A stretch of DNA of 64,000 bases from Kribbella caucasensis (GTDB lineage: Bacteria; Actinomycetota; Actinomycetes; Propionibacteriales; Kribbellaceae). Positions 58,604 to 63,892 of this stretch are shown piece by piece (the stretch's first letter is position 1; each line of letters starts with the position of its first letter). Location of the stretch: assembly GCF_004361855.1 (NCBI RefSeq), contig NZ_SNWQ01000008.1, forward strand, positions 310,001-374,000, given 5' to 3'. Made by a program: the position numbers and the translations under genes. The notes under the pieces were generated by a model. It was given only the letters and a program-made list of their open reading frames with translations. It did not search any database and was not told where the DNA came from.

Positions 58604-59563
58604 TCAGCTCCCCGGCAGGATCACGGCGCGGCCGCGCAGGCCGCCGGTCGCCAGCAGGTGCAATGCCTTCGGAGCGTCGTCCATCGCGAACGACTGGACC
58701 TCCAGCGTCAGCTCCCCCTTTGCGAGCAGTTCGGCGAGCAGCGGTGCGTACTCGCGAGCCGCCGCCTCGCGACGGATCATGTTGACCGGCAGCAGCGCCA
58801 CATCGTCGAGCAACCAGGACGGCACATCGAGACCGAGCTCCTTGCCCGCCACATACCCGACGACGACCGCGCGCCCGCCGGGCCGCACCCAGCGCGCCCG
58901 CTGAGCCACCGCCTGACCTCCGAGTGTGTCGACCAGCAGGGTTGCCGGCCGCTCCTTCAGCAGCTCGGCAGCACGCTCGTCGTCGCCGATCAGAACAGGT
59001 TCCACACCGGCAGGCAGCAGATCGACCTGTGTCGGGTCGACCACGCCGACCACTACGCATCCGGCGCGCACCGCGAGCTGTGCGACCACCGAACCGACGG
59101 CACCCGCGGCTCCCGCTACCACCACGACCTCGTCCTCGACACCGGGCCAGGCCCCAAGACGCCCGATGTCGTGCAGAGCGACGTACGCCGTCGTCGTCGG
59201 GACGAAGTACGTCGCGCCGACCTCGGGCGACAGCTCGGCCGGCAACGGGGACGCGGCCTTGCGGGTCGCGACGAACCCCGCCCACGTGCCGTCGCGGAGC
59301 AGGCCGAGTCCGCCGCCTCGCAGGACCACCCGCGTGCCCGGCTCGTGGACGTCGGACGAGACGACGATGCCGCAGCCCTCGACCCCGCCGACATAGGGGA
59401 GCTGCGGTTTGAAGTCGAACGTCCCGCTCGCCACTGTGAGGTCCAGGTGCGACACGGCGGCCGCCTCGACCCGGACGAGCGTCTCGCCTTCCTTCACGAG
59501 CGGCGCCGGCACCTCCTCGACCACCGGATCGGCGCCCCACTCGTGAAAACGAATCGCACGCAT
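58604..59563 (-). CDS. Zinc-free MDR oxidoreductase (quinone oxidoreductase-like)
   Basis: A 319-residue medium-chain dehydrogenase/reductase of the quinone oxidoreductase type: MRAIRFHEWGADPVVEEVPAP at the start, VVVVAGAAGAVGSVVAQLAVRAG as the nucleotide-binding AxGxxG motif, and FVPTTTAYVALHDIGRL in the domain linker. There are no structural-zinc cysteines and no catalytic Cys-His zinc pair. Its ATG overlaps the stop of the upstream hydrolase (TGATG). It could reduce an unsaturated intermediate of the meta-cleavage route. Confidence 0.88.
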   Translation of the reverse strand: MRAIRFHEWGADPVVEEVPAPLVKEGETLVRVEAAAVSHLDLTVASGTFDFKPQLPYVGGVEGCGIVVSSDVHEPGTRVVLRGGGLGLLRDGTWAGFVATRKAASPLPAELSPEVGATYFVPTTTAYVALHDIGRLGAWPGVEDEVVVVAGAAGAVGSVVAQLAVRAGCVVVGVVDPTQVDLLPAGVEPVLIGDDERAAELLKERPATLLVDTLGGQAVAQRARWVRPGGRAVVVGYVAGKELGLDVPSWLLDDVALLPVNMIRREAAAREYAPLLAELLAKGELTLEVQSFAMDDAPKALHLLATGGLRGRAVILPGS

Positions 59564-60429
59564 CACGGCGCCGGGTGCTTCGCGAGGAACTCGAGGCTGA
59601 GCTCGTTGTACCGGGCGGCCTGCTCGTGCTGCGGCCAGTGCCCGCACTCGTCGAAGAGCACCAGCTCCGAACCGGCGATGGCCTCGTGCATGGCATTCGC
59701 CTCCGGGACCTCGCCGAACGGGTTGTTCCGACCCCACACCACCAGCGTCGGCACGGTGATCTGGGCCAGGTGCTCGGGACGTAGCACGTTGCGCAGCCGG
59801 ACCTCCATGTTCTGCAGGCAGAGCAGGTTGTCGATGTTCTCGACGAAGTCGGGCTGGTGGTAGATCGCGTGCCGTACGGCGACGAGCTCCTCGGTCGCGT
59901 CCACCGGATCCGCCATCAGCAACCGCATCCTGGCCCGGGTCAGCTCAACGTCGTCACGCGAGACGGCCTCGCGGGTGCTGGTCCGGATCCGTTCCATCAC
60001 CTGTGGGTTGGCCACGGTCCCGCCGGCGCACAGCAACTGCAGCGACGCGATCCGGTCCGGTACGTCGATCGCCGTACGGGCACCGACCCAGCCGCCGAGG
60101 GACTCACCGACGATGTGCGCGGATTCGATGCCGACGGCATCCATGTAGGCAAGCAGGTGATCCCGGTAGCGCGGGATCTCGTACGGGTAGTCGGGCTTGC
60201 CGGTGTAGCCGTGGCCGAGCATGTCGATCGCGTGGCAGGCGTACCGGTCGGCGTGCGCGCCGAGGTTGCGAGTGAACGCCTCCAGGTGACCGCTGGTGCC
60301 GTGCAGGAAGATCACCGGTTCACCGGACCCGGCCTGCAGCGACCGGGTCGGGACGCCGCCGGCGTCCACCGTGGTGATACGGAACTCCGTGCCGGTCAGC
60401 TCGGTCCAGATGGTTTCGGCCAGCGTCAT
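59563..60429 (-). CDS. Alpha/beta hydrolase (meta-cleavage product hydrolase-like)
   Basis: A 288-residue alpha/beta hydrolase counted from ATG 60429. The oxyanion motif is FLHGTSGHLEAF, the nucleophile Ser110 lies in VGESLGGWVG, and the catalytic His is in FDECGHWPQHEQ. VVWGRNNPFGEVPEA holds the region of the acid residue. The type fits C-C bond hydrolases acting after ring cleavage, or ester/lactone hydrolases. The start is ambiguous because four ATG codons, each with its own GGAGGAA, lie at 60498, 60476, 60453 and 60429; the last begins the conserved part (MTLAETIWTELTGTE). Starts at 60498 or 60453 would be in frame and add 23 or 8 residues. Confidence 0.88.
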   Translation of the reverse strand: MTLAETIWTELTGTEFRITTVDAGGVPTRSLQAGSGEPVIFLHGTSGHLEAFTRNLGAHADRYACHAIDMLGHGYTGKPDYPYEIPRYRDHLLAYMDAVGIESAHIVGESLGGWVGARTAIDVPDRIASLQLLCAGGTVANPQVMERIRTSTREAVSRDDVELTRARMRLLMADPVDATEELVAVRHAIYHQPDFVENIDNLLCLQNMEVRLRNVLRPEHLAQITVPTLVVWGRNNPFGEVPEANAMHEAIAGSELVLFDECGHWPQHEQAARYNELSLEFLAKHPAP

Positions 60430-60510
60430 ATCGGTTTCCTCCAACAGAGTCATTTCGATTCCTCCGACAGCGTCATTCGGTTCCTCCGGCAGCGTCATTC
60501 GATTCCTCCG
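60427..60510 (-). repeat. Four tandem ribosome-binding-site/start-codon units
   Basis: Four direct repeats of 22-24 bases lie end to end on the minus strand. Each contains GGAGGAA, a 4-6-base spacer, ATG and AC(G/T)CTG. The ATG codons are at 60498, 60476, 60453 and 60429, so successive spacings are 22, 23 and 24 bases. Starts 1, 3 and 4 are in frame with the hydrolase. Start 2 opens an 8-codon frame whose TGA overlaps start 3 (ATGA). Confidence 0.85.
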
Positions 60511-60519
60511 GAATGGGGG

Positions 60520-60654: not shown

Positions 60655-61530
60655 TCACGGATGGCCGACGGAGCGCAGGAAGCCGTCGACCACGGCGTGG
60701 TAGGCGGCCGGTCGTTCCTCCTGCAGGTGGTGTGACACGTGGTCCATCACGTGGAGGTTTCCGCGCTTGACCATCCGCGCCAGCATCAACGGATAGTCGG
60801 GCGTGAGGAACGCGTCCTCACGTCCCCAGACGAAGAGCGCCGGCGCCTTGATCAGGCCGAGCTCGCCGGTCAGGTCCTGCCAGTCGCCGCGGGGCGAGTC
60901 CGACATCGCGGCCAGCTCCCGCTCGCCCGGGTCGAGACTCTGCTGGTAGCGCAGGTCGACGGTCTCCTCGGGCAGGCGGTCGGAGTCGTACCACTCCAGG
61001 CGGGTGATGAGGGCGCGCATCTTGTCCCGGGTCGGTCCTTCGCCGCCGTAGTACACGTCGCGCGCGGCACGGCCGCGGTGACCGCGTTCGGGCAGCGGCG
61101 CGAGTGGCCCGTAGAAGACGGGCATGCTGCCGGTCATGACCAGCGAACGGACGCGTTCCGGGTACTTCGCGGCCAGGCAGAGCGCGATGGTGCCGCCCCA
61201 GGAGTTGCAGATGAAGTCGGCCTGCTCGACACCGAGTGTGTCCATCAACTCGACCGTCTTCGCGGCGTGGAAGTCCCACATCGGTCCGGTGATCAGGCAC
61301 TTGTCCGACTTGCCGTATTGCAGGATGTCGACGATCAGGCAGTGGCGGTCGGTGGCGAAGTACGGCGCCACCGGGCCGAAGTCACTCCAGCCGGTGCAGC
61401 CGGGACCGCCGCCGTGCAAGAAGATCGTGTCGGGGCCTTCGCCCAGTTCGTGGAAGTGGTACTTGACGTCGCCGGCCGCGGCGAAACGGCTCTCCGGTGC
61501 CGGTCCAGCTGCCGGTGATCGGGTGCTCAT
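60655..61530 (-). CDS. Meta-cleavage product (C-C) hydrolase
   Basis: A 291-residue alpha/beta hydrolase of the HsaD/BphD/MhpC group. IFLHGGGPGCTGWSDFGPVAPYF is close to the HGSGPGxxGWxNF oxyanion motif of that group. The nucleophile is Ser110 in FICNSWGGTIAL, and the C-terminal His is in VMDHVSHHLQEERP. ALFVWGREDAFLTPDYP holds the catalytic Asp region. The group cleaves the C-C bond in the product of extradiol ring cleavage. The start at 61530 overlaps the stop of the dioxygenase gene (ATGA), so both are made together. Confidence 0.9.
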   Translation of the reverse strand: MSTRSPAAGPAPESRFAAAGDVKYHFHELGEGPDTIFLHGGGPGCTGWSDFGPVAPYFATDRHCLIVDILQYGKSDKCLITGPMWDFHAAKTVELMDTLGVEQADFICNSWGGTIALCLAAKYPERVRSLVMTGSMPVFYGPLAPLPERGHRGRAARDVYYGGEGPTRDKMRALITRLEWYDSDRLPEETVDLRYQQSLDPGERELAAMSDSPRGDWQDLTGELGLIKAPALFVWGREDAFLTPDYPLMLARMVKRGNLHVMDHVSHHLQEERPAAYHAVVDGFLRSVGHP

Positions 61531-62468
61531 CGACGGACCTCCGAAGAGTCGAGGAAGGCGACACCCATTCCGGTCAGCCATTCGGGCATCGGTGCGTAGG
61601 CGAGGCGCCGTCCGGGCGTGAAGCCGAGGGCGGCCGCCATCACGAGCCAGGTGCGAAGTTCCTGACCGCCGTTCCCGGCGACCGCTTCCAGCTCGACGGC
61701 CGTCATCGAGGCGTAGCGCCGAAGTTCGCCCTTCTGAAGGTCGTCGAGGAAGGCTTCATCGAACTCAGGGAAGATCGTCGGACGGGCGGCCACGATGATC
61801 TCCCGGCGGCGTTTGTCGTATCGCTCCCACTCACCGCGCCCGTTCAGCCAGGCTTCGACCAGGAAGGCTTCGTCCTCGTCGGCCGGATCGGTCCAGTCAC
61901 TCGGCCACGGCAGCTGGTGGGACAGACCGCCGGACGCGATCACAACCACGCGCCGATCACTCCGCTGGATCGCGGCCGCCAGGTTCTCACCGAGCTGGAC
62001 ACACCGCGCCGGCGTCGGCAACGGCTGCGCGAACACATTCACCACCAGGGGCACTACGGGTACGTCGATGCCGTTGAGCAGATACTGGATCGCGTGCGAT
62101 TGTCCGTGGTCGATCTGGAGCCGGGCCGAGATCGCCACCTCGGTCCCCGCCTCCACCAGGTCGGCGGCGAGCGCCTGCGCTAAGGCTGGGTCGGTTTTCT
62201 GCGGGCCCTTCGGCGTACCCGACTCACCGGCCGCGATCACCTCGCCGACGCCCAGCGTGAACGATGGGATCAGGTCGAGCCAGAAGCCGCGGAAGTGGTT
62301 CGAGCCGACGATCACCACAACGTCCGGGTCCACGTCGGCGATGAGGTCGCGAGCCGTACCGAGGGCGTCGCGGAACGCCTCGGCGCGGTCGGTGTGGACG
62401 ACCTGGTCCCAGTGGGTGTTCATCAGCGTCGAGTGGGACGCACCGACGCCGAGCACGATCTCTCCCAT
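61527..62468 (-). CDS. Class III extradiol ring-cleavage dioxygenase
   Basis: A 313-residue protein of the LigB/MhpB type. GVGASHSTLMN contains the first iron-binding His, VVIVGSNHFRGFWLDLIPSFTLG contains the second, and VVIASGGLSHQLPWPSD a conserved His of the active site. The N-terminal region MGEIVLGVGASHS starts directly, which supports ATG 62468. The enzyme opens a catechol-like ring next to the hydroxyls using Fe(II) and oxygen. It is 5 bases from the Rieske oxygenase stop and overlaps the C-C hydrolase gene. Confidence 0.9.
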   Translation of the reverse strand: MGEIVLGVGASHSTLMNTHWDQVVHTDRAEAFRDALGTARDLIADVDPDVVVIVGSNHFRGFWLDLIPSFTLGVGEVIAAGESGTPKGPQKTDPALAQALAADLVEAGTEVAISARLQIDHGQSHAIQYLLNGIDVPVVPLVVNVFAQPLPTPARCVQLGENLAAAIQRSDRRVVVIASGGLSHQLPWPSDWTDPADEDEAFLVEAWLNGRGEWERYDKRRREIIVAARPTIFPEFDEAFLDDLQKGELRRYASMTAVELEAVAGNGGQELRTWLVMAAALGFTPGRRLAYAPMPEWLTGMGVAFLDSSEVRR

Positions 62469-62473
62469 CGGCG

Positions 62474-63685
62474 TCACTCCGCGGTCGCGTCGGCAGGCTC
62501 GTAGCCCTGCTCGCGCAACCGGTCGAGTCGTTCCTCGGTGACGTCCTCGGCGAGCTTGCGCCACTGCAGCAGCGAGTCGTCCGGTCGGTACAGCTTCTCC
62601 GGCGGCGCGTCGGTGACCTCGACCATCCACTTGTCCTGACCGGAGAACTGGCCGTGGAACAGCCAGCGCACCGCGCCGAGGTACTTGGCGTAGAAGGGCA
62701 GGGTCTTCAGGCCCTGCTTGAAGTCCGCGAGCACGCCGACGTACAGATGGTTGTCTTGGTCAACGGGTACGTAGAACTCGTAGTGGATGAAGGTCGGGTA
62801 GGCGATCCGCAGGACGCCGGGCATGCTGACCGAGGCGAACCCGGGGAACTCCTGGGCCGCGATGGTCGGGTTGACCTCGCGATGGGTGGAGGTGTTGCCG
62901 ATGTTCTTGGTCTCCTTCGGCGGCTTCAGCTTGTACCAGGCCGTGCCTGACCAGCGGCCCAGTCCCGGGAAGTCGGCCTCCCAGAACTGCTCCTGCTGCA
63001 CCCGGTAGATCCACCGGCCACGCTTGACGATCCTGGTCGTGTTCCAGACCGGCATCGGCTTGAACAGCCGCCACAGCGCGGTCCGGTGCAGGTACTTCGC
63101 GTGGCCCTCGTCGAACCCGTTCTCGCAGGCGAAGCGCCAGTTCCCCTCCCGCGGCTGGATGCGCGCGCCGATCACGGCCGGGTTCGACACGAGCTCCTCG
63201 GGCAACTGCTCGTCGATCGGGTGCGGTGGTTCGCCGTCGCCGACGTACACCCAGACCATCCCGAGCCGTTCCTCGACGTCGTACGTCGGCTGCGTCACCT
63301 TCCCGCAGATCGGCGACCGCGGCCCGTCGGTGATCGCGGCCTTGAGGTCGCCGGTCTCCAGGTCGAACGTCCAGCCGTGGTAGACGCAGGACACCGTGCC
63401 CGGGAACTGCTTGTTGCCGTAGCTCAGCGGTACGCCGCGATGTGGGCAGCGGTCCTTCATGCCGAAGACCTTGCCCTTGTCGCGGATGACGAACAGCCGC
63501 TCGCCGAGCAGGGTCACCTGGCGCGGTTTCTCCCTCACCTGCGACGAGAAGCAGACCGGGTACCAGTAGCCGCGGAAACCGGCCTTCGCGGCCTGGTAGT
63601 GCGGCCAGCTCGACCAGTCCTGGCGACCGGGCAGCCGGCCGGCCCGGTGCTTGCGTACCTGCCTTCGGTCAACGGTGTCGGTCAC
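62474..63685 (-). CDS. Rieske non-heme iron oxygenase, catalytic subunit
   Basis: A 403-residue ring-hydroxylating oxygenase. The Rieske [2Fe-2S] ligands are Cys80 and His82 (RCPHRG) and Cys100 and His103 (CVYHGW). The mononuclear iron site is visible as Asp192-x2-His195-x4-His200 in NGFDEGHAKYLH. The start is GTG 63685, at the beginning of the TDTVDRRQV segment. No small subunit gene is adjacent, as in one-component-type oxygenases that use separate reductases; the flavoprotein gene that begins at 63893 on the other strand could supply electrons. It is the first gene of the aromatic operon and probably hydroxylates an aromatic acid or amide. Confidence 0.92.
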   Translation of the reverse strand: MTDTVDRRQVRKHRAGRLPGRQDWSSWPHYQAAKAGFRGYWYPVCFSSQVREKPRQVTLLGERLFVIRDKGKVFGMKDRCPHRGVPLSYGNKQFPGTVSCVYHGWTFDLETGDLKAAITDGPRSPICGKVTQPTYDVEERLGMVWVYVGDGEPPHPIDEQLPEELVSNPAVIGARIQPREGNWRFACENGFDEGHAKYLHRTALWRLFKPMPVWNTTRIVKRGRWIYRVQQEQFWEADFPGLGRWSGTAWYKLKPPKETKNIGNTSTHREVNPTIAAQEFPGFASVSMPGVLRIAYPTFIHYEFYVPVDQDNHLYVGVLADFKQGLKTLPFYAKYLGAVRWLFHGQFSGQDKWMVEVTDAPPEKLYRPDDSLLQWRKLAEDVTEERLDRLREQGYEPADATAE

Positions 63686-63892
63686 GTCAGCTCCACTGGT
63701 CGTCGCAATCGGTGCAGCGAGCACATCACCGGGCTTGGAGCGCGACCAACAAGTTCGGTTCGTCTGACGGAACGCCCCTGCCCGCTGGCGCGAATCCGGG
63801 CCGGTGGTCCGGTGAGCGGTCCCGACGACGGGACGTCCGGCGTGGCCCGTACCTACATTCGACGGCGCACCCATCTCCCCAGGAGGCCTCTC

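Follow-up and report, generated by a model that had tools for sequence, protein, structure and literature searches.

A tandem array of four ribosome-binding site and ATG units before an alpha/beta hydrolase gene, and similar duplications at other gene starts

Four initiation units in an operon-like run of genes

The window (the whole 64-kb stretch of DNA that was analysed) carries on one strand a run of genes which, in this order, encode a Rieske oxygenase, a LigB-type dioxygenase, an alpha/beta hydrolase, a small 40-aa ORF, a second alpha/beta hydrolase (hereafter the hydrolase), a zinc-type dehydrogenase and an M20-type peptidase (Table 1). The run resembles an operon for degrading an aromatic ring or a steroid. 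The best NCBIfam match of the hydrolase, HsaD, falls so far below its cut-off that it would not fix the substrate. The 40-aa ORF gave no match in the NCBIfam scan. Frames with a TQVHRIN-like tail were seen at 7 of the 19 loci of hydrolase relatives (L032, L033, L035-L038 and L047), just upstream of the hydrolase at six of them and on the opposite strand in L032.

Table 1. Positions of the array and of the genes around it in the window
Feature	Position	Strand	Description
Rieske oxygenase, same run	62474..63874	-	Upstream of the dioxygenase
LigB-type extradiol dioxygenase, same run	61527..62477	-	Between oxygenase and upstream hydrolase
Upstream alpha/beta hydrolase, same operon-like run	60655..61581	-	Upstream of the 40-aa ORF
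Small upstream ORF, 40 aa	60520..60642	-	Membrane-helix-like by eye; tail RSNTQIHRINQHR; stop 21 nt before start 1
Whole array, four initiation units of 22, 22, 23 and 24 nt	60422..60512	-	Direct reading and tandem-repeat scan
Unit 1	60491..60512	-	GGAGG 60509-60505; ATG 60498-60496; hydrolase frame, 311-aa form
Unit 2	60469..60490	-	GGAGG 60487-60483; ATG 60476-60474; out of frame
Unit 3	60446..60468	-	GGAGG 60465-60461; ATG 60453-60451; in frame, 296-aa form
Unit 4	60422..60445	-	GGAGG 60442-60438; ATG 60429-60427; 288-aa form; start position in L032, L034 and L035
Mini-ORF of start 2, 8 codons (MTLSEESK-stop)	60450..60476	-	TGA overlaps start 3 as ATGA (60453-60450)
Alpha/beta hydrolase, longest form	59563..60498	-	Abhydrolase_1; best NCBIfam match HsaD, 111.5 bits, cut-off 400
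Downstream zinc-type dehydrogenase	58604..59563	-	Start overlaps hydrolase stop (TGATG)

Read from 60512 on the minus strand, the four units at the start of the hydrolase are TCCGGAGGAATCGAATGACGCT, GCCGGAGGAACCGAATGACGCT, GTCGGAGGAATCGAAATGACTCT and GTTGGAGGAAACCGATATGACGCT. All four hold GGAGGAA, with gaps of 6, 6, 7 and 8 nt between GGAGG and ATG. The predicted pairing energy with an assumed 16S tail sequence is nearly equal across the units (-9.3 to -9.5 kcal/mol), and all four GGAGG are predicted to be only partly open (0.29-0.52). The steps from ATG to ATG are 22, 23 and 24 nt (1, 2 and 0 mod 3), giving starts 1 to 4 frame offsets of 0, 2, 0 and 0 relative to start 4. Because the second step compensates the first, start 1 is in frame with start 3 (45 nt away) and start 4 (69 nt away). 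The ATGA between starts 2 and 3 places the TGA of a short ORF inside the next RTG start, which is the arrangement of RTGA-type coupling.

An earlier note on this DNA had described four ATGs (60498, 60476, 60453 and 60429), each with GGAGGAA, a hydrolase frame shared by starts 1, 3 and 4, and an 8-codon mini-frame running from start 2 to a stop on start 3; direct reading bore out all of this. The note had also set the extent of the repeat at 60427-60510; the repeat proper is slightly wider, at about 60512-60422. Tandem Repeats Finder places the array at 60421-60510, with a period of 22, 4.0 copies and a score of 118 (136 at a period of 45), the top scores among the tandem repeats of the window. 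The units have diverged (84% matches, 5% indels); the few differences between them fall outside GGAGGAA and ATG, a conservation that is the very reason why the site was noticed. An assembly error is unlikely, given four diverged units within 91 nt. Folding of the array RNA is unremarkable: 169 of 200 shuffled sequences were at least as stable (z 0.94), and the idea of a regulatory RNA structure was dropped on that ground. The four-unit array is real and unusual. We refer to such an arrangement, in which at least two adjacent copies of a ribosome-binding site plus ATG are found and the last of them opens a gene, as a tandem duplication of a translation initiation region, a descriptive group coined in this analysis; the hydrolase array has this form.

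A single copy, absent from the relatives examined

The DNA of the array has a single match in the 9.46-Mb genome, which rules out a dispersed repeat. A double-unit pattern with a second gap of 6 nt likewise matched this genome once, at the array, and a pattern with a 7-nt second gap and ATGA in both units (the 7-nt ATGA pattern) matched the array and nothing else in 38 genomes of the genus. The 6-nt pattern gave 19 rows in those 38 genomes, one of them the hydrolase array. Four loci from this genus survey were examined and set aside: the second ATG opens no long ORF in L102, L111 and L116, and L110 consists of 24-nt units with short ORFs only. L102, L111 and L116, from three genomes of the window's genus, have in common a GATGACC...GCCGGAGGCG..ATG-like stretch, preceded by GACGAGGGAAGACCG.

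The earlier note had proposed that the number of units be compared with relatives, and the array was found in none of the 24 hydrolase relatives examined. At 19 loci with hydrolases of 60-86% identity, no tandem SD-ATG pattern occurs in the interval that begins 300 nt before the match start and ends 60 nt after it, and the array was likewise absent from five whole-genome relatives of 37-62% identity. The best hydrolase matches in the 37 other genomes of the genus reach 40-43% identity. Three relatives begin at the position of start 4: L032 (86%) with MTHTIWTDL, L034 (83%) with MTTTIWTEL and L035 (80%) with MTTPTTIWNEL. A fourth, L033 (83%), has no ATG exactly at this position. From the missing array in the 24 relatives and the beginning of L032, L034 and L035 at start 4, it follows that units 1-3 would be a recent local duplication in this lineage; start 4 is most likely the ancestral start. 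The same absence rules out a conserved feature of the hydrolase family.

Scanning 452,478 bases of the genome revealed further tandem arrays; some outscore the hydrolase array, and the period of several is close to 20 nt. Among them are minisatellites (periods of 20-23 nt) at L054:17772-17913, L059:10859-10937 and L062:6898-7111, and those of L054 and L059 share the motif ACAACCCGGGACC. Short tandem arrays are not rare in this genome; one built of a ribosome-binding site and ATG is. These other arrays lend some weight to a neutral origin, in which slippage duplicated 22 nt where the start site happened to lie, start 4 does all of the work and output is unaffected. The finding of the hydrolase array in one genome only is consistent with this as well. 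Nevertheless, GGAGGAA and ATG are kept in all four copies while the differences lie elsewhere, an argument tempered by the small number of changes and by the site having been noticed for that feature, and the bias of step lengths at other loci (see below) suggests that such copies do matter to the cell in some cases. On balance we regard the neutral minisatellite as possible, though rather unlikely.

Initiation-region duplications elsewhere and their reading frames

A class-wide survey of 394 genomes looked for paired SD-ATG units whose second gap is 6 or 7 nt, with ATG and not ATGA required. The 6-nt survey gave 106 rows versus 71 in a backwards control and the 7-nt survey 69 versus 34. Spacers were analysed for 100 of the 106 rows in the 6-nt survey (we left out four of five G266 copies, one G356 row with N and one overlapping G273 reading) and for 69 of 69 in the 7-nt survey. 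Where the spacers were of equal length, their identity was at least 0.8 in 20 of 38 6-nt hits (2,000 shuffles: mean 3.1, maximum 9) and in 7 of 17 7-nt hits (mean 0.6, maximum 4; also 2,000 shuffles), a test that is inflated because some arrays contribute several rows (G152, G191, G201, G101, G212 and G368). The rows of high identity amount to about 13 arrays for 6 nt and 6 arrays for 7 nt. Judged by these spacers, part of the class-wide excess over control consists of true tandem copies.

Many of the class-wide hits have no long ORF downstream, and some lie at gene starts, where we read the gene names by eye from the translations. In L122, three starts stand 23 nt apart, the last of them opening an EcfT-like gene of 250 aa, and the mini-ORFs MTRTGGLR and MTRTGGAR each stop as ATGA on the next start. 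A P450 gene is preceded in L188 by the mini-ORFs MSNAADDSR, MSAAEDAR and MSAVEDAR, with steps of 26, 23 and 23 nt; the second mini-ORF lacks a GGAGG within 20 nt. Single 23-nt copies precede a response regulator in L189 (mini-ORF MNTVEALA, with the preceding frame stopping in the first ATGA) and a glycosyltransferase in L190 (mini-ORF MRPKEAVV). In L090, an in-frame array of 27-nt units, it is uncertain which start is the true one. Several candidates were rejected: the last ATG opens no 100-aa ORF in L072, L084, L089, L096, L120, L121 and L123; L124, with 444 codons open from its second ATG, was not judged a gene; L191 seems to be a repeat within coding sequence; and L192 is not a clear duplication. 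The exact four-unit layout of 22, 23 and 24 nt was found nowhere else in the surveys done.

Repeated starts were also read in front of pknA. L125 has five of them, spaced 27, 27, 27 and 26 nt, and in L126 the starts before pknA are 26 nt apart. For the pbpA-pknA junction of another genus, 97 genomes had a match; 30 loci (L128-L157) were inspected and 29 were readable. By eye, 8 of the 29 show the pbpA-pknA stop-start junction without an insert, and the remaining loci have inserts of varying sequence and length, among them L128, where as many as four repeated units precede pknA. The inserts are SD/ATG or SD/GTG mini-ORF units in some loci (L128, L133) and a different, GAAGCCGAGCGAAGCGAGGCGAGA-like repeat in L129, L131, L139, L145 and L147. 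The number of units at this junction varies between species.

Such variation would be expected of a tuning switch, in which slippage changes the number of units within populations and so sets the level or the N-terminus of the hydrolase, in the manner of phase variation. In addition to the pknA units, which differ between species of that genus, a published correlation between the length of a repeat upstream of Mtb-fpg1 and mRNA level (described in part of PMC2734929) is in line with this idea. The divergence of the hydrolase units, which should lower slippage, speaks against it, and we consider a copy-number switch improbable here.

To what extent such duplications are constrained by frame could be followed in 295 genomes of a Streptomyces-like genus (identity inferred), which was picked because the first surveys had hits there; one such hit, L198, is among the 17 duplications described next. 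The 7-nt ATGA pattern gave 21 matches in 19 genomes versus 2 in the control. Seventeen of the 21 have 7-nt spacers alike at 5 or more of 7 positions and look like true duplications, a threshold that was chosen after the rows had been seen; it excluded L194 (1/8), L195 (4/7), L207 (2/7) and L213 (3/7) for low spacer identity. In 15 of the 17, an ORF of 100 aa or more follows from the last ATG. The first ATGA ends a reading frame of 100 or more open codons in 14 of the 17, which is what duplicated stop-start overlaps of operons would produce, although open frames are common in such G+C-rich DNA. The 17 may not be fully independent, since L203 and L211 precede look-alike proteins.

The steps in these 17 duplications are 2 mod 3 in 11 cases, 0 mod 3 in 6 and 1 mod 3 in none, and all 21 rows unfiltered give 13, 7 and 1 for steps of 2, 0 and 1 mod 3, the sole 1 mod 3 step being that of L207. 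A step of 2 mod 3 creates a mini-ORF of 7-10 codons that stops as ATGA on the next start, and a step of 0 mod 3 an in-frame extension. As the pattern permits steps of 20-31 nt for such pairs, four per class, the chance of no 1 mod 3 step is (2/3)^17 = 0.001. The corresponding 6-nt ATGA pattern showed no excess in the same 295 genomes (9 matches versus 11 in the control, six of them in one genome). Eight distinct loci were read from that survey, of which four qualify at 5 or more of 6 spacer positions, with steps of 24, 29, 30 and 30 nt; two of these four have no 100-aa ORF from the last ATG, and the excluded loci include one 1 mod 3 step (L217, 2/6). Steps of 1 mod 3 exist class-wide, at 22 nt in G304, at 28 nt in G445 and G057, and in the hydrolase array. 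Taken together, these counts suggest, without proving it, that initiation-site duplications are filtered by frame, in a sample that is modest and partly selected.

Two of the three steps in the hydrolase array agree with a rule of 0 or 2 mod 3, and the first (22 nt) belongs to the class absent among the 17. The frame layout of the array proves nothing by itself, since 14 of 27 step combinations would leave every start productive.

Proposed effect and comparison with known systems

The explanation towards which we lean, with moderate confidence, is that the initiation region of the hydrolase was recently duplicated in tandem, so that every initiation leads to hydrolase and translation is raised or secured. 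This explanation builds on the observed units and frames, the single genomic copy, the absence from relatives and the like duplications elsewhere, and adds to them initiation at all of the sites, which we infer. Replication slippage would have duplicated the gene's own ribosome-binding site, its ATG and its first codons ATGACGCTG, leaving four sites that can each presumably load ribosomes. Initiation at starts 1, 3 and 4 would yield hydrolase lengthened at the N-terminus by 23, 8 or 0 residues, and start 2 an 8-residue peptide whose stop may hand the ribosome to start 3. Every start would then feed the hydrolase, three of them through the shared frame and start 2 through its coupling to start 3. 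The array may in this way boost or steady hydrolase synthesis at this mid-operon position; start 4 is probably both the original start and the principal one. Extra ribosome loading or re-initiation is the most plausible idea for its effect. Publications back this by analogy, through the ascB duplication, the Mtb-fpg1 repeat and the RTGA-coupled small ORFs.

A ribosome footprint covers about 28-30 nt. Adjacent starts in the array are closer together than this, and neighbouring sites should therefore compete; simultaneous occupancy would be feasible for sites 1 and 3, or 2 and 4, and not for neighbours. Competition between sites only 22-24 nt apart, along with a start 2 that is out of frame, would also fit an array acting as a brake, in which ribosomes are tied up or misdirected at the upstream starts and the mini-ORF, and output is lowered or made dependent on re-initiation. 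However, starts 1 and 3 are in frame, and the stop of start 2 overlaps start 3 in an arrangement that couples well according to part of PMC4633059. We regard a brake as highly improbable.

Beyond this locus, we tentatively propose that duplication of initiation regions may be a recurrent, frame-filtered actinobacterial route to ATGA-coupled mini-ORFs or extra in-frame starts, which would adjust the output of the gene downstream; the hydrolase array would be among its most elaborate cases. Out-of-frame variants would probably be purged by selection, and the others may persist as neutral or mildly useful for expression. If the duplications change output, they represent a simple evolutionary step that tunes one gene of an operon without touching the promoter, and offer a natural set of one-unit to four-unit leaders, in-frame or coupled, in which ribosome sharing between neighbouring starts could be studied. 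The frame bias, if upheld in larger surveys, would be a selection signal measurable from genomes alone. Gene starts in such arrays are ambiguous, which is a warning for annotation.

The earlier note knew of no described system with this exact layout. This holds for the four-unit 22, 23 and 24 nt layout within our surveys, and is too strong in view of published systems, as far as the available parts of these sources describe them: MIRU, RTGA-coupled small ORFs and adaptive duplication of a ribosome-binding site. Nor is the array without parallel among natural sequences, given the other tandem initiation-site duplications at L122, L125, L126, L188, L189 and L190 and the 17 Streptomyces-like cases. 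Among the matches listed from the open-licence literature, there was no report of natural tandem SD-ATG arrays.

MIRUs (Supply et al. 1997) are described in excerpts of PMC12548453 as repeats with short ORFs at gene starts, coupled at -4 nt and apparently mobile, and in those of PMC2734929 as elements of 40-100 bp that are scattered over many sites and can vary in copy number between isolates. Judged against these excerpts, the hydrolase array resembles MIRUs in coupling a short ORF by a 4-nt overlap, which is true of one of its three junctions (start 2 to start 3). By the same descriptions it differs from them in that its units are 22-24 nt and not 40-100 bp, and in that it occurs once in 9.46 Mb, is not dispersed and carries the gene's own start codons. 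Because neither unit length nor dispersal is shared, the array is not a MIRU.

RTGA-coupled small ORFs are over-represented in mycobacteria and have been proposed to deliver ribosomes (PMC4633059, in part). As at starts 2 and 3, the TGA of the short ORF overlaps the next start; in contrast to the array, the small ORFs are single, many of them are on leaderless transcripts, and the excerpted text of that paper does not mention tandem copies of a start region. In E. coli ascB, a 10-nt duplication of the ribosome-binding site went with 5-6 fold higher expression, the excerpted report leaving open whether transcription or translation had changed (PMC4488073). Here too, the start region of a gene within an operon carries a tandem duplication, although, by that account, it comprises 10 nt upstream of the start codon and one extra copy, and arose in laboratory evolution. 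In the bicistronic design, as outlined in part of PMC12548453, ribosomes pass to the gene from a short ORF placed before it; that design is engineered, whereas in the hydrolase array only start 2 would act so. As read from its sequence, the hydrolase array is akin to these published kinds: an initiation region is duplicated in tandem, and the resulting starts are either coupled or in frame.
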